Source: Rhodopirellula halodulae
GTDB taxonomy: Bacteria > Planctomycetota > Planctomycetia > Pirellulales > Pirellulaceae
Assembly: GCF_020966775.1 (NCBI RefSeq)
Contig: NZ_JAJKFV010000009.1
Location: forward strand, 124,001-188,000
Direction of reading: 5' to 3'
DNA length: 64,000 nt
Both the position numbers and the translations under genes were made by a program. Positions 30,270 through 49,692 of this stretch are shown piece by piece. The notes under the pieces are model-generated. The model searched no databases. It saw only the letters and a list, made by a program, of their open reading frames with translations, and was not told the origin of the DNA. Numbering within the stretch: position 1 is the stretch's first letter; every line of letters begins with the position of its first letter.

Positions 30270-31511
30270 CTACTTGGACGCGAATTGGTCGACTTCGTCC
30301 GGGTCCGTTGATCCCGTGATGACTTCCAACAATCGGTGCGTTAGCTCCGGTGATTTGGCCTGCTTCGGTCGCGACTGGTTGGTGGGCCAGCGGGTGATGG
30401 CGGCGGCTCCGCCTAGTTCTGACTGGCCGAACTCGATGGTTCCGCCACAAGACAGCACCAGTTTGCGAACCATGGCGAGTCCCATGCCGCCTTTGCCCGA
30501 CTGAGCGTTCTTGCCGAGGGTTTCAAACATCCGGAAAACGCGTTCGCGGTGTTCTTTCGGGATGCCGGCACCGTCATCTTCCACGATGAGTTCTGCCATC
30601 CCGTCGTCGGACATGCCACCGCGAATCACGACTTCGCCTTTCTCACCAGGATGGTGTTTGATTGCGTTGTCGATCAGGTTCACGACGACTCGCATCACCG
30701 GCGAGAAGTTGCCAATGATGGTTGGTAGGTCCGACGCCAGATGAACATGGAAGTTGGGTGGTGCTTCGACGAAGGCGATTGCTTCTTCGGCAATCTGGTT
30801 CAAATCAACGGGTTCCGTGGAGGTGTAGCTTTGGTCGATCCGAGCGTATGCGAGCAGCCCGTCCAGGAGAGCTTGCATGCGTTCGATCTGCTTGCCCATC
30901 GTGGACAGGTGTTCGTTCACCGATTCCGGGACCTCTTGTCCGGCATCGTCCATGTCTTCCTTGATCCACGACGCCAGGTTCTGCAGGCCTCGAAGTGGCG
31001 AACGCAAATCGTGCGAAGCGACGTAGGCAAACTGTTCCAACTCTTGATTGCTTCGCTGCAAAGCTTCGTTGGTTTGAATGCTGTTTTCGAGCGCCGCGTC
31101 CAACGCTTGTTCGATTTCGATGCGGCGGGTGATGTCTTGATGCGTCCCGATCATTCGGACGAGCTTGCCATCGTCGTCATAGATGAAATCTCCGATCGAT
31201 TCGATCCAGCGATAACCGCCATTGGCGTGCCGCAAACGATAAACATTGAAATAGTCGTTTGGAGAACCGTCGGTCACCGTCGCCAACTGAGCCATCGCGC
31301 GGTCGTAATCGTCCGGGTGAAGGCGTTCTTTCCAGCTCTGCAGAGTCCACGTGAAGTCCGGTGCCAGGCCAAGCTGATGAAGCAATTCCTCTGAGACTTC
31401 GACATGGGACGTTTTGAGATCAAACACCCAGTAGCCGAGCTTCGCGGTTCGCGTTGCAATGCGAAACCGAAGGTTGGTCTCTGTGAGTTGTTTTTCAATG
31501 TCCGTTGTCAT
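30270..31511 (-). CDS. PAS-domain sensor histidine kinase
   Basis: A 413-residue soluble sensor kinase. A PAS/PAC domain occupies about 17-132 (LGYWVFDLKTSHVEVSEELL, RWIESIGDFIYDDDGKLVRM, GTHQDITRR). The HisKA box holds the phosphoacceptor His167 in FAYVASHDLRSPLRG. The ATPase has an N-box NLIDNAIKHH, G1 EDDGAGIPKEHRERVF and G2 GKGGMGLAMVRKL. This is the FAYVASHDL-type kinase seen with bacteriophytochrome-like and GAF/PAS sensors. There is no transmembrane segment, so it senses a cytoplasmic signal. I chose the ATG at 31511 (MTTDIEKQL); the frame is open 28 codons further but that extension looks non-homologous. No response regulator is adjacent. Confidence 0.92.
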   Translation of the reverse strand: MTTDIEKQLTETNLRFRIATRTAKLGYWVFDLKTSHVEVSEELLHQLGLAPDFTWTLQSWKERLHPDDYDRAMAQLATVTDGSPNDYFNVYRLRHANGGYRWIESIGDFIYDDDGKLVRMIGTHQDITRRIEIEQALDAALENSIQTNEALQRSNQELEQFAYVASHDLRSPLRGLQNLASWIKEDMDDAGQEVPESVNEHLSTMGKQIERMQALLDGLLAYARIDQSYTSTEPVDLNQIAEEAIAFVEAPPNFHVHLASDLPTIIGNFSPVMRVVVNLIDNAIKHHPGEKGEVVIRGGMSDDGMAELIVEDDGAGIPKEHRERVFRMFETLGKNAQSGKGGMGLAMVRKLVLSCGGTIEFGQSELGGAAAITRWPTNQSRPKQAKSPELTHRLLEVITGSTDPDEVDQFASK

Positions 31512-31775
31512 GGTTGCAAATGTAGCATATAGGGATTGGCGATGGGGGCTCGCGAAAGCGGCTTTCAGATGTGAATTTGTTGCGATTTCGCGCAAATGAA
31601 AGCGATGGACGTTGCGGCCAAACGCATGGCCTCCAGGTTAGGAACCGCAACAGCTGGCGCCGTTGTTGCGGCCGGTTTCTGTCGTGAATCCGTCGCATCA
31701 TTGAATGGACGCGAACAAAAACGCTTCGCACCGAGCCGTTCTAGTGCGACAGATTGATTTTGGTAGGCTGGCAAT

Positions 31776-42150: not shown

Positions 42151-45100
42151 TCAGGCGGCCTGCAGCGATCGGTGGTGTCCGGCGTAGGAAACCCACTCGG
42201 TCACCTCTTCCAAGTCAGGAAGCTTGCCGCCACGGGCGATTCGCTTGCCTTCCCGAGAATTGGCAATCGCGTCGACTTCGCCGAACAAAGTGACTGGATT
42301 TTGGTCGGCCAACTCTTCCGCAGTGGTCACACCAGCCGCAACCAGGAATTGAGCGTCATGGCCACGCATCATGGGGACTCGGCAAACCAAAGTGGTTTGC
42401 TGTTGCCACGCCAAAACGGTTTCTGCATCCACGCGGCGATGGTTGAGCTGCTCGGCCACCTTTTCAGGCATCGATTTCAGCAAGTCATCCACGGTGTAGA
42501 TTCCGATTTCGTTCAGGCGTTCGGCCATGCGAGGTCCAATCGAAGGTGCGTCGACCACGTCGCTGGCACGTTCCAGATAAAAACGCAATTCGGTTTCGCT
42601 CTGCGATTGGCTGCTGTAGGAGCGTTCTTCACGGGAGGATCGATCGTTGCTTTCGCTGCGTGGTTCTCGTTCCGTTCGGGATTGGCGATCCGATCGGCTG
42701 TCGCGTTCCGATCGGCTGCTGCGTTCAGACCGGCTGCTACGTTCAGATCGGGAAGATCGTTCCGAACGCGAGCTGCGTTGGCGGGAGGAGTCGTGGTCTC
42801 GCATCGACACCACACCGTCCGAACGATTGGATTGCCCGTTGCCGTAGCCTGAACCGTTGCCAGATCCATTGCCTTCGCCGGAGACACCGCGGGAGTAACC
42901 ATTGGATCGGCTGCTGGAGCTGCGCGACGATGAGCTGTTGGACGAGCTGCGTCGACTGGAGCTGCGTGAACGGCCGTCATTATCGCTGCTGCGACGAGTC
43001 CGCGTTCGGACGCTTTCGCGACCGTCGCTGTTGCGAAGTGATTCCATTTCGTTGGCCAATTGACGACCGCGGCGAACCGATTCGACTTCGTAACGATCGC
43101 GGTCAAATGCGTCGTCATCGTAGTCGTCAACCAATTCAAAATCGTGATCGATGATGTCTCGCTGGACGGCACGTCGTCCACTCAGTGATCGGCGACCGTT
43201 CAGGCTGCGACGACTGCGGCGATTCAACGTCCGGGCATCCACTGCCCGGGAATCCACAGCCCGGCCGTCGACCGTGCGAGTGTGCGTGCGGACTTGGGTG
43301 GATTGGTTGGCCGAAGCGATCCAGCTGGTGATGCGGGAAAGCTCGTAGCTCGAACCGCTGAGCAAAATGCGTTGACCGCGTTCGGTTGCCAAGAACGTTT
43401 TGACTTGGTCCAGCAAGTCGCTGGGGTGGATCGCTGCCAATTGTGCCGGATCAGTGATGCCGCATCCAACCAAAACGCGAGCGTCGAAGCCGCGAAGCTG
43501 AGGAACGCGGCACATCAAACGGCATTCGGCTTGCCAACGACGGATCGTGCGTGCGTCGACGCCGGCCAAACCCAGCGTGTCCGCCAAGCGGTTGCTGTCT
43601 TGGCTCATCAGGTGAGTGATATGCGAGATGCCGATGCGTCGCAAACGAGACGCCGCGACACCATCGATCGATGGAGCCGAATCAATGGGGCTGTCGACCG
43701 TCAAGAAGAACGGCGTTTCGGGTTCGTTGGCATCCAGGTTTCCTTCGTTTCCGTCGGCGATTGCTCGTCCTTCTGGGAAAGCTTGACCGCTGGGAATGGT
43801 CGAAGTGGTCTCGTCCGAGTAGTAGTATCCGTCGCGGTATTGCGTTCCAGCGGGGGCTTGGTCAGTCGCCGAAGCTGGGTGGCTTGGCACGAAAGCTTGG
43901 CTGCTTGGATAAACCGAAGGTTGCGCCGGAGCAACGTTGCCGCGAACCCATTGGTCTTCGTCCAGTCCAGCGGATTCGCGATAGGCGGCTTCGAATTCGT
44001 GGTTGATATCAGCCGAAGCACCGTGGATCCAACGCGAACGTTCGCCCGTTCCCAATTGCGTTTGATCGTCCAACCCGTGAGGTCCGACGTAGCGATCGTG
44101 GCGACGACCGTTTCGCCACACGGGACGGTGAGCGTGGATGACTCGCGAGGCGTGCAGCCGGAAGGTGCGGGCGCCGTTTCGTGAAAGGGATCCAGCCAGT
44201 GGTTCGTGACTGGTCAGCAACACAATTTGTCGGCCAGGTGCGGAGTAGTCTGATAGGGCCGATGCGATGACGTCGCCGGTCACACCTTCGGCGGTCCAAG
44301 GCCGGAAAGCGTCTTTCAGATCGCTCCAGTCGGCGGTACTGTGGTTGTAACCGCCATCAAACGCCGCGAATAATTCGCGATGGGTTTCGATGACCAGCGG
44401 CACTGAGCGGCCGGTGCGATCCAGCAATTCGCCGGCGGCCATGCGGACGGCCATCGAGGCAATCGCTCGGGTGACTCCGGGCAATGACAGTTCGTCGTGT
44501 CCATCGATCCGCACGTGGACTTCGCGACCACCGGAAACGGTTCGCGTGTTGGTGAAGCGGCGTTCGGCTTCGGCGCGATCCAACGTATGAGGATCCAATT
44601 GCACCGGCGTTGTGGTCCAGGTGATGCGGCGATGTCGTCCGCCCGACAAACGCACCAACCAACGGCTGGATAGTTCCACCAAAGAGGACTCGGTCCGAGC
44701 GACCGGACGATTGCGGTTCAGCTCAGCAATCAATTCGTCGCGTCGACGCAACAGATTTTCGCGGCGTGCCGAGTGCAGTGCTGGCCGAACGCGAGGGCGG
44801 ATCGGCGCGACGGTGGGAGCCAGCTCCAATTCGCGTCGGCGAGCGGCATTGGATTCGAGTTCCACCTCGACTTGGTGCAATCGTTCTTCGACTGCAGCCA
44901 AATCAAACGCGGTGGCGGGCATTCCGATCGGATAGTCAGCGTCGACGATTGGCAAACTGCGGAGACTGCGACGGACCGATGCGGTTTCATCGAGAACGTT
45001 TCGCAGTTCCAATTCTGTTTGTCGCAGTTCGCTCAATCGCGTGTTGCGTTCGTTTGACCAATCGGGGTGATGTCCCCAGATCGTCACGAACTCTTGCAAT

Positions 45101-46794
45101 TCCGTTCGCGAAGCGGCCAGTTCGTCGACAATTCGTGAGCGGTCCGCGAGCAACTGTTCGAGCGTTGCGGTCAGCTGGCGAGTGACTTGGTCAATGTTTT
45201 CGCCGACACCGTATGGCGAGCGACGTAGTTCGGATCGAATTTGGCGAAGCGTTGACGCCAGGGAAGCATGACGGTCCCAAACGCCGCGAAGCGGTTCGAA
45301 AGTGACAGGGTCGACTGATCCGGAGACTCGGTCCACCGATTCGCGTTCGATCTTGCCGAGCAACCAATCAATTTGGTTGGTGGCGGAATCGATTCGCAAG
45401 TCGATGTCATCGATCGTGTGCAGCGGGCGATAGGCATCGCGATAGAAATCGTCCCACTTGTTGCCGACGTCATAGCGGTCAATGGCGTGGATGAAGTGGT
45501 CGTAACGACGGTGGCGGATGCCATCCATGTCGACGTGATAAGCATGTTGGCGAGCCGACGCGATCGAATCACGCAAGCCACGGATTTCAGCCAGCGTGCG
45601 ACGCAGTTGAATGATTTCCGAATCCGCGTTGCGAAGTTGGGCTCGCAATTCGGAGGCCGACAACTTGGCGGCGTATCGCCAATCGGTGGTCAGGTAGCCG
45701 CTGCCCAGTAAAGGCTCTCGTGAAATTGGTGTGTGGGCGACGGGGGCTCCGGTGATGGGATCGTAAGCCGTTGCCCGTGGGATCGAACCGGCCTGAACGT
45801 CCAGGTCGGCAATCCAGCGTTTGAGTCCGGCAGCACGCGCCCGCAAAGAGTCGGCTTGTCGGTGCAATTCACGCAAGCGAGCCGTGTGTTCGCGATGCTT
45901 TTGGGCTTGGATGCTTTCGTAGCGAGCGGCCCGCGAACGATGGGCTTGAATAACCGAACGGCGAGCGTTCAACGAATCGCGTTGGCGTTGCAGTTCCACG
46001 CGTTGACGCTGCAGGTCACTCAGTTCACGAGCGATCGTTTCGTTGTGTTTGTAAGCGGACGCGTCGTCCCAATCGTGGCTGGCGTACCAATCAGAAACTT
46101 CGAGTTCGGTTTCTGGCAAAGCCGCCAATTGAGCCTCGATGTCGGCCAATTCCGATCGCAGCGCTCGGCGACGTCGGTCTTCCGTTTCATTGAAAGCGTG
46201 AACGGAATGGCCGGAAACGTTGGTATTGCGGAATTCCGGATGATCGTAAGTGAATCGGGCGGTTTCCGATTCGTATGGCAACGTTGCCAAACCTTCGCGA
46301 TCCAAGCCGGATTGAATGCAAGACGCGACGACTCGTGACACGCTGGTCACGGTGGTGTCGACCATCACACCGTCAACGATCGATTCTGGCATTTGCACGT
46401 TGCGAAGTGCTCGTGCGGCAAGCGTGCTGTGTTTGGAGTTGGAGCGAATTTCGTCTTCGCTGCCGAACCATCCGTCTTGGTAGCTTTCCCAGGTCCGGGT
46501 GGTTTCGCTGCGTGGTTCAAATTCGACGGTGCGACGACCGGCGGTGGTTCCATCGGCTTCGCGGCGACAGTGAACCCAGCCGTGCCCGTCGACCCAAACG
46601 ACGCGTCCGGTCGAACCTGACAGCATGCCGTTGGGGTAGTTTCGCGAAACGAGCGAGTCGCGAATGAAGCGGCTGATCGCGGTTTTGCCGGACCCGATGG
46701 GGCCGAGCACCACGTTCAAGTGATGCGAGAGTGGCCCGAGTTCCACTCGGTTCAGTGGGCCATGATTGTCGATTTCGATTCGATCCAACAACAT
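42151..46794 (-). CDS. YhaN/Rad50-like ATPase with RS-rich linker and two DUF4332 modules
   Basis: A 1547-residue protein. The N-terminal half resembles YhaN/SMC-type ABC ATPases. Walker A GPIGSGKT is at 31-38. Long coiled coil runs through about 205-700, then WLVRLSGGRHRRITW near 710-722, an ABC-signature-like LSLPGVTRAIASMAVRMA, a Walker-B-like LVIETHRELFAAFDG near 800 and an H-loop-like LLTSHEPL. The signature and Walker B are degenerate. Two related C-terminal modules (about 1025-1155 and 1408-1545) match DUF4332 (helix-hairpin-helix-like; SIDGVAASRLRRIGI and SIGPRMAERLNEIGI starts). Between them, about 1265-1400, is a Ser/Arg linker with 6-residue RSERSS repeats. A Shine-Dalgarno-like GGAAGGAG (46804-46811) precedes the ATG by ~9 bases. 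Likely a DNA-associated motor; untested. Confidence 0.88.
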   Translation of the reverse strand: MLLDRIEIDNHGPLNRVELGPLSHHLNVVLGPIGSGKTAISRFIRDSLVSRNYPNGMLSGSTGRVVWVDGHGWVHCRREADGTTAGRRTVEFEPRSETTRTWESYQDGWFGSEDEIRSNSKHSTLAARALRNVQMPESIVDGVMVDTTVTSVSRVVASCIQSGLDREGLATLPYESETARFTYDHPEFRNTNVSGHSVHAFNETEDRRRRALRSELADIEAQLAALPETELEVSDWYASHDWDDASAYKHNETIARELSDLQRQRVELQRQRDSLNARRSVIQAHRSRAARYESIQAQKHREHTARLRELHRQADSLRARAAGLKRWIADLDVQAGSIPRATAYDPITGAPVAHTPISREPLLGSGYLTTDWRYAAKLSASELRAQLRNADSEIIQLRRTLAEIRGLRDSIASARQHAYHVDMDGIRHRRYDHFIHAIDRYDVGNKWDDFYRDAYRPLHTIDDIDLRIDSATNQIDWLLGKIERESVDRVSGSVDPVTFEPLRGVWDRHASLASTLRQIRSELRRSPYGVGENIDQVTRQLTATLEQLLADRSRIVDELAASRTELQEFVTIWGHHPDWSNERNTRLSELRQTELELRNVLDETASVRRSLRSLPIVDADYPIGMPATAFDLAAVEERLHQVEVELESNAARRRELELAPTVAPIRPRVRPALHSARRENLLRRRDELIAELNRNRPVARTESSLVELSSRWLVRLSGGRHRRITWTTTPVQLDPHTLDRAEAERRFTNTRTVSGGREVHVRIDGHDELSLPGVTRAIASMAVRMAAGELLDRTGRSVPLVIETHRELFAAFDGGYNHSTADWSDLKDAFRPWTAEGVTGDVIASALSDYSAPGRQIVLLTSHEPLAGSLSRNGARTFRLHASRVIHAHRPVWRNGRRHDRYVGPHGLDDQTQLGTGERSRWIHGASADINHEFEAAYRESAGLDEDQWVRGNVAPAQPSVYPSSQAFVPSHPASATDQAPAGTQYRDGYYYSDETTSTIPSGQAFPEGRAIADGNEGNLDANEPETPFFLTVDSPIDSAPSIDGVAASRLRRIGISHITHLMSQDSNRLADTLGLAGVDARTIRRWQAECRLMCRVPQLRGFDARVLVGCGITDPAQLAAIHPSDLLDQVKTFLATERGQRILLSGSSYELSRITSWIASANQSTQVRTHTRTVDGRAVDSRAVDARTLNRRSRRSLNGRRSLSGRRAVQRDIIDHDFELVDDYDDDAFDRDRYEVESVRRGRQLANEMESLRNSDGRESVRTRTRRSSDNDGRSRSSSRRSSSNSSSSRSSSSRSNGYSRGVSGEGNGSGNGSGYGNGQSNRSDGVVSMRDHDSSRQRSSRSERSSRSERSSRSERSSRSERDSRSDRQSRTEREPRSESNDRSSREERSYSSQSQSETELRFYLERASDVVDAPSIGPRMAERLNEIGIYTVDDLLKSMPEKVAEQLNHRRVDAETVLAWQQQTTLVCRVPMMRGHDAQFLVAAGVTTAEELADQNPVTLFGEVDAIANSREGKRIARGGKLPDLEEVTEWVSYAGHHRSLQAA
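42676..42780 (-). repeat. 18-bp tandem repeat coding RSERSS
   Basis: Within the ATPase gene, near-identical 18-bp units encode a run of Arg-Ser-Glu-Arg-Ser-Ser blocks, flanked by degenerate RSDRQS and RTEREP units. The sequence (units such as CGGCTGCTGCGTTCAGAC) is more regular at the DNA level than its surroundings, so unit gain and loss is likely. Confidence 0.8.
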
Positions 46795-47412
46795 CGCAAA
46801 ACGCTCCTTCCGTGGCTGCGCGTGGTCATGCCTTTCGAGGCGGCACGCCCTTCAAGGGTCCATGGTTCGCGGCAAAGAAAGGGGACATCCTGCCCGCTTG
46901 CGGGAAACCTTGCCGAGATCCTTTGTTCACCACCAGACGGGTGAACTCGCGAAGACTTTAGCCGAATCGACAAAATTTTGGAAAGAGCGATTTCGTGAAA
47001 CTGCGGCTGCGTTTTGAAAGTCTTTGGATTGACTGCTGAAACATCGTGTTTGACGCGATTTTGAAGCACGTCCATGTCGGGTTAGCGAGCGATTGGGGCC
47101 GGTTTTCGCTTGGTCGTTGGGACTCGGTTGCAACAAATTTGACGGAATTGGGTGACGCGAGTTGCATTCATGGTGCGGAAACTCACCTAGCGAGCGGGCG
47201 TCATGTTTGCCGCGATCAGAATGCTTGTCTGAGACGATCCGGCGTCGCCATTTTGGCGTTTGGGTTCTCAGCTTGAGCCAAAACTAAACTTCCGTTGCGA
47301 AACTTTGTTTGAATTTGCTATGCCGAGCCTTGTCGAACGCCGTTTTGACCGGTCCACCTGTTGGGCTGCCCTCCAAAATTTCCCACCGCACCACAAGAAC
47401 GCTAACAATTCG
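46795..47412. other. Long divergent intergenic region
   Basis: 618 bp separate the ATPase gene (minus) from the lipoprotein gene (plus). Short open frames here look like noise in composition. A small inverted repeat GTTCACC / GGTGAAC lies at 46925-46946. I see no tRNA, no terminator and no strong sigma-70 pair. It probably holds the two promoters and a long leader for one or both genes. Confidence 0.5.
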
Positions 47413-48399
47413 ATGCCCCGGAGTTGGCTGCGAGAACGATTGACCTGCATGTTCAGGGATGCGTGCTGCGCAGTGGGTTGGTTTGGAGTTGTTGCTCTGT
47501 TGGTTTTGGTTTCCGGCTGTGGAACGACCAAAGAGCACCAAGCAACCGAACAATTGTTGTTGTCCGACGCGGTGGATCGCAGTGTGTCCACGATTGACTT
47601 TCGTCCGCTGTCGGGTGAGAAGGTGTACTTGGACACGAGCTATTTGCGTTCGGTGAAGTCGACCTCGTTCGTCAACGCCGACTATGTGACCAGTGCTTTG
47701 CGGCAACAGGTGATGGCGGCGGGCTGTTTTTTGCAAGACTCGGCCAAAGAAGCGGACATCATTATCGAAGCTCGAATTGGAACGCTTGGCTACGACGATC
47801 ACCGCGTGACGTTTGGTGTTCCTGAAAATAGCGCGATCAATTCCACGGTTTCGTTACTTCCGAGTGCACCCAACGTTCCGCAGATTCCAGAGATCGCGCT
47901 CGCGCGTCGGGATGCCCGAGAAGGCGCCGCGAAGGTTGCCGCCTTTGCCTACGACCGCGAAACGCGTGAGGCGATTTGGCAATCGGGAATCAGCCAGTCT
48001 CGCTCCACCGCTCGCGATACGTGGGTGATGGGTGTGGGGCCGTTTCAAGGTGGTTCCATTCGTGATGAAACCCGATTGGCAGGAACCAAACTCGTTCGTT
48101 TCGGCCGGCGTTCCACCGGTTCGCCACCGCGAACGTTCTCTCGTCCGCCGGTCGATTACACGGCCGAAACCCGGTTTGATGGCGGTTGGCCGGTGCTCGG
48201 ATCGGAGAACGGAAGCATGATCGGCGGAGGCTTGTTGCCCGGTGAGCCTTTGCCGGAAATGAGATCCGGTCCGGTGATGGTTGCTGAAAACGCAGGGGAG
48301 GCGGAATCGGAATCATCGGAGCAGCCGAAAGGCGAAGCCAAGCCCGAAGCGGCCGAAAAGATCGCCCGCCCGCCTGATTCAAAACGCAAGATGCGATGA
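47413..48399 (+). CDS. Lipoprotein of unknown function (DUF6655-like)
   Basis: A 328-residue predicted lipoprotein. After a basic start it has a hydrophobic core and the lipobox LVSGCGTT (Cys about 37), so it should be lipidated and sorted to the inner or outer membrane. The next 200 residues (LLSDAVDRSVSTIDFRPLSGEKVYLDTSYLR, DYVTSALRQQVMAAGCFLQDSAKEADIIIEARIGTLG) resemble planctomycete envelope lipoproteins of the DUF6655 type. The C-terminal ~100 residues are Pro/Glu-rich and disordered. I chose the ATG at 47413; an internal ATG at 47449 would keep the lipobox with a shorter n-region. A terminator follows 52 bp downstream. Confidence 0.82.
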   Translation: MPRSWLRERLTCMFRDACCAVGWFGVVALLVLVSGCGTTKEHQATEQLLLSDAVDRSVSTIDFRPLSGEKVYLDTSYLRSVKSTSFVNADYVTSALRQQVMAAGCFLQDSAKEADIIIEARIGTLGYDDHRVTFGVPENSAINSTVSLLPSAPNVPQIPEIALARRDAREGAAKVAAFAYDRETREAIWQSGISQSRSTARDTWVMGVGPFQGGSIRDETRLAGTKLVRFGRRSTGSPPRTFSRPPVDYTAETRFDGGWPVLGSENGSMIGGGLLPGEPLPEMRSGPVMVAENAGEAESESSEQPKGEAKPEAAEKIARPPDSKRKMR

Positions 48400-48450
48400 G
48401 CAAGATTCGCCTTCCTGGCGATCAGGTGGTTTTTGTACAGGTGTGTTTCG

Positions 48451-48483
48451 GCGGACGCATCGAAGGATATGGCGTCCGCTTTT
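48451..48483 (+). terminator. Terminator between lipoprotein and DUF481 genes
   Basis: The stem GCGGACGC pairs with GCGTCCGC around a 13-nt loop, followed by TTTT. It lies 52 bp after the lipoprotein stop and 109 bp before the DUF481 start, so the two genes are probably separate units. Confidence 0.8.
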
Positions 48484-48591
48484 GATGAATCATTCCGTTC
48501 ATTGCTTCAGTCATTATTGCGTCCGCCAACACTGGGGCCGCTAACACCGCGTCCGCACGGGTCGTTCTGGCATCGACTCTCTGAGGTCATC

Positions 48592-49692
48592 ATGAGTTCC
48601 ATTCGTTTTATTTCCTGCGTGTTGTTGGTCAACGTTTGGTTGTTCAGCGGCGTGTCGGGCTTTGCACCGGTCGACGTGTACGCGCAGCAAGTTCCCAGTT
48701 GGCAAGCTGGAAACTCCACTTTCAATGGCACCGGTTACGATCTTCCCAGCCCACCGCCGGCTCTCGCCGCATCGTCACCGTCTCCCGCCATTGGAGCTTT
48801 GGAGTTGCCAGCCGATACACCGGAGTCGATATCGCCTGGTTTCAGTGATTTGCAACCGAGTTGGGGCGGAGAATTTGGGTTGTCGCCCGCTTCTTTGGAC
48901 ACGCCGATTGTGGCCCCGGAAGAAACCGTGGTGGAAACGTCGAGCTATTCCGACGTGATCAGCACGGGGCAACCTGTTGAGTCAGCTCCGTTGGAAGAAG
49001 AGGTCGTGCGTTGGTACCACCGGCCATGGATTTGGATGACTCAAGGATGGGACAATCACGCGGAGTTCGGATTGGACGGCAGTTCGGGCAACGCGGACAC
49101 GTTGGCGTTGCAGACCGGATTGGAGATGAAACGCAAAACGGACGCTTACACCTTGGCGTTGGATTTTGATTATCGACAAGCCAGTGCGAGCAACGTGACC
49201 ACCGAAGACAACGGTCGATTCAATCTGGACTACGACAAATTGCTGAACGATTCGAATTGGTCGTTGTTCGGTAAGTTCGGGATGGAGTTTGATAAGTTCA
49301 AATCGTTTGATTTGCGTCTGAACCTGAACTCTGGTGTGGGATACCACTGGATCCGAAACGACACGACCAATTTGGTGACTCGTTTCGGTGCTGGTGCGTC
49401 GAAGGAGATTGGTGCACCGGATGATTCGTGGATTCCGGAAGCGGTGTTTGGAATCGAAGCCGATCATCAGCTCAATTCCCGGCAGAAGATCAAAGGCAAG
49501 TTGGATTACTTTCCGGCCTGGGACGACTTCAGTGACTTTCGTTTGGTCACCGATGTCGCCTGGGAAACGTTGCTAAGTGATTCGGACAACTTCTCGCTGC
49601 GTTTGTCGGTGACGGACCGCTACGACAGCACGCCGCAAGGTGCGTTGAAGAACGATTTCTATTACTCCGCACTGTTGCTCTATAAGTTCTGA
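48592..49692 (+). CDS. DUF481 outer-membrane beta-barrel protein
   Basis: A 366-residue secreted protein. A signal peptide (IRFISCVLLVNVWLFSGVSGF) precedes a Pro/Ser-rich segment of about 110 residues. From about residue 145 a DUF481 (YdiY-like) beta barrel begins: WDNHAEFGLDGSSGNADTLALQTGLEMKRKTD, YTLALDFDYRQA, SLFGKFGMEFDKFKSFDLRLNLNSGVGYH, RFGAGASKEIG, and a C-terminal FYYSALLLYKF with terminal Phe. The family is found in outer membranes, for example salt-induced proteins; its cargo is unknown. The ATG at 48592 is preceded by GAGGTC and directly followed by the signal sequence. Confidence 0.85.
   Translation: MSSIRFISCVLLVNVWLFSGVSGFAPVDVYAQQVPSWQAGNSTFNGTGYDLPSPPPALAASSPSPAIGALELPADTPESISPGFSDLQPSWGGEFGLSPASLDTPIVAPEETVVETSSYSDVISTGQPVESAPLEEEVVRWYHRPWIWMTQGWDNHAEFGLDGSSGNADTLALQTGLEMKRKTDAYTLALDFDYRQASASNVTTEDNGRFNLDYDKLLNDSNWSLFGKFGMEFDKFKSFDLRLNLNSGVGYHWIRNDTTNLVTRFGAGASKEIGAPDDSWIPEAVFGIEADHQLNSRQKIKGKLDYFPAWDDFSDFRLVTDVAWETLLSDSDNFSLRLSVTDRYDSTPQGALKNDFYYSALLLYKF

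Follow-up and report, generated by a model that had tools for sequence, protein, structure and literature searches.

In a 64,000-nucleotide window of the Rhodopirellula halodulae genome (contig NZ_JAJKFV010000009.1, positions 124,001 to 188,000), a single open reading frame at 42151-46794 on the reverse strand, running from an ATG start to a TGA stop, encodes a 1547-residue protein that joins a YhaN/Rad50-like ATPase head to two C-terminal DUF4332 modules. Judging from sequence comparison across planctomycetes, this protein derives from a machine of the SbcCD/YhaON type and is probably a scaffold that binds DNA without hydrolysing ATP. We present evidence that its head keeps an intact Walker A motif while its ABC signature and Walker B have degenerated, that 21 of 100 typed relatives have a degenerate phosphoesterase gene directly upstream, and that the DUF4332 pair is the most strongly conserved part of the protein.

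Domain architecture and selection

All parts of the protein are encoded on the reverse strand. The N-terminal lobe of the ABC/YhaN-like head spans residues 1-165 (46300-46794, outer limit approximate) and contains the Walker A motif GPIGSGKT at residues 31-38 (46681-46704). A coiled-coil-like arm (residues 166-695; 44710-46299) lies between this lobe and the C-terminal head lobe (residues 696-905; 44080-44709); no CxxC hook is present in the arm or anywhere else in the protein. The C-terminal lobe includes the positions aligned to the ABC signature (residues 769-776; 44467-44490) and to Walker B (residues 798-804; 44383-44403), both of them degenerate. A spacer then leads to the first HhH-like DUF4332 module (residues 1031-1165; 43300-43704), which is separated from the second (residues 1405-1547; 42154-42582) by an Arg/Ser-rich, lysine-free linker (residues 1166-1404; 42583-43299). 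Within the linker, an 18-bp tandem repeat of 3.3 copies (42692-42751) encodes a series of ERSSRS repeats.

We estimated selection from pairwise dN/dS against the closest named relative, R. europaea 6C (locus L093), over 1511 codons at a dS of about 1.2. The ratio was 0.118 in each head lobe and 0.165 in the arm, and it fell to 0.023 and 0.033 in the first and second DUF4332 modules, which are 97% and 94% identical to those of R. europaea, respectively. The linker was the fastest-evolving part, with a ratio of 0.27 that is subject to an uncertain alignment in this region. The gene is real and looks to be under purifying selection. Because the DUF4332 pair is the most conserved part, it is likely the business end of the protein, with the head likely serving as a nucleotide-stabilised platform.

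A divergent YhaN/Rad50-like head

The initial annotation had described the N-terminal half as a YhaN/Rad50-like ATPase and had proposed profile searches as a check, a proposal that gave different answers with standard and with custom profiles. In Pfam, no ABC domain exceeded its cut-off in the 1547-residue protein (AAA_23 reached E 0.017, below cut-off), and AAA_27 (PF13514) gave no match up to E 1. We therefore aligned 12 relatives, all from other lineages and without the protein itself, and made a profile of each head lobe. These profiles did match the protein colinearly, at E 4e-12 for the N-terminal lobe (over residues 1-49) and E 5e-8 for the C-terminal lobe, whose place is also seen in the alignment; the reversed protein and 20 shuffles gave E 3 or worse. 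AAA_27 was matched by 13 of 26 aligned family members at 1e-3, relatives with intact motifs exceed its cut-off (L077, E 3e-16; L082, E 4.1e-10), and the 1547-residue protein is linked to this model through an intermediate profile. In the PDB, the family profile matched Rad50 head chains (3qf7, E 1.4e-14; 1f2t_B, E 8.6e-8) in a list that also includes coiled-coil cross-hits to SMC3 (the top row), dynactin, and myosin, and a search with the 1547-residue protein alone returned no match. On these grounds we regard the YhaN/Rad50-like head as real despite its sub-cut-off Pfam scores.

The motif assignments of the initial annotation were partly upheld. Walker A is intact, and both downstream motifs are degenerate as it had described: the signature position reads LSLPGVTR where relatives with intact heads have LSRGT or LSSGT and an LSxGT-like sequence would be expected, and the Walker B position reads VPLVIET, without the two acidic residues seen in the LPLILDD of intact relatives. 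The signature loop does retain a serine and a glycine, both here and in R. europaea (MSLPGVTR). The annotation had also singled out a GG-R-RR stretch as signature-like, and this identification does not hold: the stretch, RLSGGRHRRI (LSGG at residue 716), aligns with a conserved YLxRLTxGRY segment upstream of the signature, whose true position is at about residues 769-776.

The fusion across planctomycetes

Two surveys bear on how widely head and DUF4332 occur together. First, a head-only query (residues 1-844) was searched against 60 genomes from the same GTDB family as the host; 16 of these matched, the R. halodulae genome included, and the best protein had DUF4332 in the same frame as the head in all 16, one of which is cut by a contig end and another of which lacks the N-terminal lobe at a contig edge. 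Second, relatives were encoded in 273 stretches recovered by a profile search of species genomes. We kept 80 of these, all titled as planctomycetes (some by genus names that we take to be planctomycete) except one titled only 'bacterium'. Both parts share one frame in all but four of these loci, namely L121, L123, and L132, in each of which the match lies at a contig edge, and L145. From these loci and those already known, we typed 100 distinct fused proteins, including the 1547-residue protein, and two DUF4332 modules were detected in 98 of them with profiles made in this analysis. The typed proteins were selected for carrying DUF4332 in the frame of the head C-terminal lobe, so the extent of the fusion cannot be judged from them; it can be judged from the 16 of 16 head-only matches.

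The initial annotation had held that homologues encoding the two halves as separate adjacent genes, with no conserved linker, would count against its reading. The outcome was mixed: all 16 head-only matches are fused, and separate frames were found only at L145, a locus of a metagenome-assembled genome (MAG) in which head and DUF4332 lie in overlapping frames, but the Arg/Ser-rich linker proved not to be conserved. At another locus, L143, also from a MAG, it is the head itself that is split. Family genes in two overlapping frames were observed at these two MAG loci (L145:5675-9137 and L143:2954-6446) and at L112:7971-12541 of Rhodopirellula baltica BR-MGV, an arrangement that either a frameshift or an assembly error may have produced.

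One relative differs sharply in its proportions. An 892-residue protein recovered at two of our loci (L036:6718-9396, identical to L117:7971-10649) and encoded on the single-contig chromosome CP036272 has both lobes and both DUF4332 modules with only a short stretch between the lobes, so that the arm is largely absent. The long coiled coil is therefore not essential to the family's role there, and this nearly armless form suggests that the derived function can do without long arms. No description of the fusion, or of the degenerate phosphoesterase pair described below, was found in the portions of open-licence PMC papers that were searchable. The YhaN-DUF4332 fusion is a variant of the YhaN/SbcC kind and not a new kind of system.

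A degenerate phosphoesterase partner in relatives

In 21 of the 100 typed relatives, a gene for an SbcD/YhaO/Mre11-like phosphoesterase lies directly upstream of the fused ATPase gene, on the same strand in all 21 cases detected. The gaps between the two frames range from -4 to 142 bp, apart from one 185-bp overlap that we attribute to a long predicted start. The partner profile was built from genes first noticed in loci of the same class in another family. Pfam barely recognises these proteins: among seven tested, one matched Metallophos (E 0.0038) and two matched DNA_pol_E_B (PF04042; E 0.0035 and 0.018). Of the 18 PDB rows that the partner profile matched at E up to 1, 14 were chains of the Mre11/SbcD type, with a best match of E 4.6e-4 over about 65 residues, and the profile also matched phosphoesterases of the R. 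halodulae genome.

We scored eight metal-ligand positions of the phosphoesterase fold (motifs DxH, GD, GNHD, H, and GHxH) in these 21 partners and in that of L145. All 22 keep between zero and two of the eight positions (21 keep zero or one, and L086 keeps two), a count for which the alignment is robust at the first two motifs and rests on a divergent alignment at the later ones. A control phosphoesterase from the R. halodulae genome (L186) keeps all eight, and phosphoesterases beside other YhaN-like genes without DUF4332 keep three to five, except that at L193, which keeps none. Given how few ligands remain, we interpret the partner of these relatives as a pseudo-nuclease. The presence of such a degenerate SbcD/YhaO-like gene upstream of 21 of 100 relatives points to the origin of the family. 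Locus L193 (L193:7194-11890) combines a phosphoesterase with none of the eight ligands, an intact head, and no DUF4332.

In the R. halodulae genome, the partner profile (E up to 1e-3) found nothing on the contig of the 1547-residue gene and only two phosphoesterases elsewhere, both beside other YhaN-like genes; with no further match, the protein seems to lack a partner of its own. The initial annotation's remark that no SbcD-like nuclease lies alongside thus holds for this genome, and it missed the degenerate upstream gene of the relatives. Both phosphoesterases form phosphoesterase-then-YhaN-like operons without DUF4332. At L185:7798-13184, AAA_27 matches at E 3.8e-13 and Metallophos at E 1.9e-4; at L186:7239-12415 the values are E 1.4e-60 and E 2.1e-15, and both heads have intact signature and Walker B motifs. 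The L185 phosphoesterase keeps five of the eight ligands, an indication that nucleases have also partly decayed where no DUF4332 is involved. The sbcd model TIGR00619 exceeded its cut-off in none of 15 planctomycete genomes, 13 of which had sub-cut-off matches, and in eight of 14 control genomes.

Motif decay and the history of the head

We compared the state of the head motifs between relatives with and without a partner gene. Of the 100 typed proteins, 14 were set aside because their upstream sequence was short or their head columns were missing. Among the 21 with a partner, 19 keep both signature and Walker B, one keeps Walker B only, and one keeps neither (the partner is present and the signature lost in L155 and L167). 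The 65 proteins classed as partnerless on at least 1.5 kb of upstream sequence, among which the 1547-residue protein is counted, divide into six with both motifs (L042, L043, L080, L081, L143, and L172), four with the signature only, 17 with Walker B only, and 38 with neither. The signature of L035 (CSPGDRAL), one of the four signature-only proteins, is a coincidental regular-expression match that was counted as intact in the typing and as lost in the test of independent pairs. In that test, a causal effect of partner loss on motif loss was set aside as a statistical claim, since a sign test on the only three independent pairs gave p = 1. The two kinds of loss may be parts of one history.

A FastTree phylogeny of 92 heads (82 fused and 10 paralogues) arranged these states in a series, from partner-bearing proteins with mostly intact motifs, through partnerless proteins with a decayed signature and a retained Walker B DD, to a Rhodopirellula group in which we found no partner, the signature has disappeared, and DD has mostly become E-T. 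An IQ-TREE analysis of 75 of the 92 rows with the motif columns removed kept the nesting on the Rhodopirellula side, with poorly supported deep branches, and on this tree the fewest changes required were five for the signature, four for Walker B, and three for the partner. The tree has weak deep branches and no inferred root, so the sequence of losses is our reading of it. In addition, forcing the 65 fused rows of the thinned tree into one clade was disfavoured (p-AU 0.024, in a test made with a previous tree already known), and L077, L078, and L085, whose genomes we presume to be Gimesia, may therefore represent a second DUF4332 fusion. The unfused L193 groups with the heads of these three proteins, which hints at a separate second fusion or at a loss.

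Taken as a series, these observations lead us to propose, tentatively and as a possible course of events, that nuclease activity was lost first, then the partner, and then ATP turnover, leaving a static or slow-switch DNA scaffold built on tandem HhH modules. As part of the same tentative reading, stages of this loss would survive in living planctomycetes, with intact-head paralogues in the same genome. The main rival is that the protein is still an active SMC/Rad50-like ATPase, with the altered signature and the E-T Walker B as functional substitutes (the glutamate coordinating Mg2+), perhaps by pairing, as a mixed dimer, with either of the YhaN-like heads with intact motifs that its own genome encodes. 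The availability of these two heads is in keeping with that idea, as are the dN/dS of 0.118 in each lobe and the fact that the aspartate position of Walker B is still acidic: glutamate occupies it in 38 typed proteins, including the partner-bearing L155, and Walker A (GK[ST]) is kept in all 36 of these whose N-terminal lobe is readable. Against it, 29 of the 38 proteins with this glutamate have threonine at the next position, the site of the second Walker B acid, and only one has an acidic residue there; in sister lineages, moreover, a wide variety of residues has taken the place of the signature serine and glycine, which looks like lost constraint. We therefore consider continued ATPase activity unlikely.

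Tandem DUF4332 modules

Pfam identifies DUF4332 (PF14229) in two stretches of the 1547-residue protein, at 155 bits and E 1.2e-45 against a cut-off of 23.2, and also matches HHH_5. DUF4332 was recovered in all 26 aligned family members at 1e-3 and HHH_5 in 21 of them, in agreement with the initial annotation, which had proposed a tandem HhH-like pair; by our own reading of the sequence, each DUF4332 probably comprises two HhH-like motifs. We considered that DUF4332 could instead be a protein-protein or RNA module, in which case the protein would be a structural scaffold unrelated to DNA. The domain does occur in other contexts, including a 261-residue protein of the same genome and a fusion to a Zn_dep_PLPC-like domain in a relative, and the one paper found to name it, within the accessible parts of open-licence PMC papers, does so in a figure legend only. 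The breadth of the HHH_5 matches tells against this idea, as do weak matches to the HhH regions of RecG, DNA polymerase IV, RadA, and NusA models and the DNA-repair ancestry of the head, and we judge a role unrelated to DNA to be improbable, placing it second among the rivals.

Of 392 genomes sampled from the phylum, 74 contained DUF4332 as such. The other fusion mentioned above, the second in planctomycetes, places a Zn-dependent phospholipase C-like domain (PF00882) before one DUF4332 towards the C-terminus; it was seen at L091:4680-6554 (E 5e-11) and, weakly (E 0.0027), at L047:7975-9558 in the R. halodulae genome itself.

The Arg/Ser-rich linker

Arginine and serine make up 47% of the linker, compared with 20% of the rest of the protein. 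The initial annotation had likened this region to eukaryotic SR proteins and had read it as a phospho-switch, in which putative phosphorylation of the linker would control both modules. The linker does have 37 RS/SR dipeptides against 26.6 +/- 4.1 in composition-preserving shuffles, somewhat more than composition would give (46 of 5000 shuffles reach 37), and such dipeptides in a low-complexity stretch are what it shares with SR proteins. Unlike those, it is conserved neither in length nor in composition among homologues: across the 98 members with two modules its length varies from 6 to 276 residues, and it is both long (at least 100 residues) and strongly R+S-rich (at least 0.4) in only 19. 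It also consists in part of the 18-bp tandem repeat and evolves faster than any other region. We accordingly dropped the phospho-switch as a main reading and regard it as very improbable; given the range of lengths, a charged flexible tether is the likelier role.

Gene neighbourhood and comparison with defence systems

Neighbours of the gene in the window include a DUF6655 protein (47260-48399, forward strand), a DUF481 protein (48433-49692, forward strand), and a PAS histidine kinase (30270-31595, reverse strand). Gene context was discarded as a clue, since no neighbour cluster, the gene itself aside, spans more than seven of 32 compared loci, and the neighbours seen here cluster with those of R. 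europaea only. We give hardly any credence to an anti-phage ATPase of the Lamassu or Septu type: PADLOC matches to LmuB (E 1.5e-9, 35.7 bits) and PtuA (E 2.3e-4, 18.6 bits) would favour one, but the best LmuB stretch covers the arm (residues 250-613) and the PtuA match only residues 1-49, so that both were judged arm and P-loop cross-hits, and among 31 compared loci the DUF6655 and DUF481 neighbours are common only to R. europaea and not to the other 30.

Discussion

The scaffold that we favour would have arisen through a series of losses around a retained core. By its sequence, the protein descends from the ATPase subunit of an SbcCD or YhaO-YhaN (Mre11-Rad50-like) pair, and its YhaN-type head is fused to a C-terminal DUF4332 pair. 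Where relatives have an adjacent partner, the metal-binding residues of that partner are gone and the ABC motifs of the ATPase are mostly intact. In the Rhodopirellula lineage no partner gene was detected, and the signature and Walker B have been replaced, yet Walker A and both DUF4332 modules are kept under strong purifying selection. DNA cutting and ABC-type ATP turnover would both have been lost, in an order that we infer from the phylogeny. In the present protein, nucleotide may be bound through Walker A as a structural element or slow switch, the HhH-like motifs of DUF4332 may hold DNA, and the variable R/S-rich linker may allow the two modules to reach different DNA segments.

Comparison with known systems places the family near, and apart from, several of them. 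It resembles the YhaN (AAA_27) of YhaO-YhaN operons in its two-lobed head and, in partner-bearing members, in the order of phosphoesterase and then ATPase; unlike YhaN, the 1547-residue protein has a C-terminal tandem of DUF4332, and its lineage lacks a detectable partner gene, the signature, and the Walker B pair. Likewise, the family profile matches Rad50/SbcC structures and the partner profile Mre11/SbcD structures, but the 1547-residue protein differs from SbcC-SbcD and Rad50-Mre11 in having no CxxC hook, and members of its family have either a degenerate partner or none. The B subunits of DNA polymerases alpha and epsilon are inactivated calcineurin-like phosphoesterases, and the weak PF04042 matches of two of seven partners are reminiscent of these, whereas the partner genes of planctomycetes are linked to one for a Rad50-like ATPase.

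In the usual view, Rad50, SbcC, and SMC heads depend on ATP turnover, and those of the Mre11-Rad50 class on a nuclease partner as well. If the proposed history is true, the tethering or scaffolding role of these proteins would be separable from the catalytic cycle, and planctomycetes would offer a set of natural mutants in the form of putative dead-nuclease pairs, signature-less heads, and a nearly armless head. It would also provide a specific hypothesis for DUF4332 in planctomycetes, namely that it may bind DNA.
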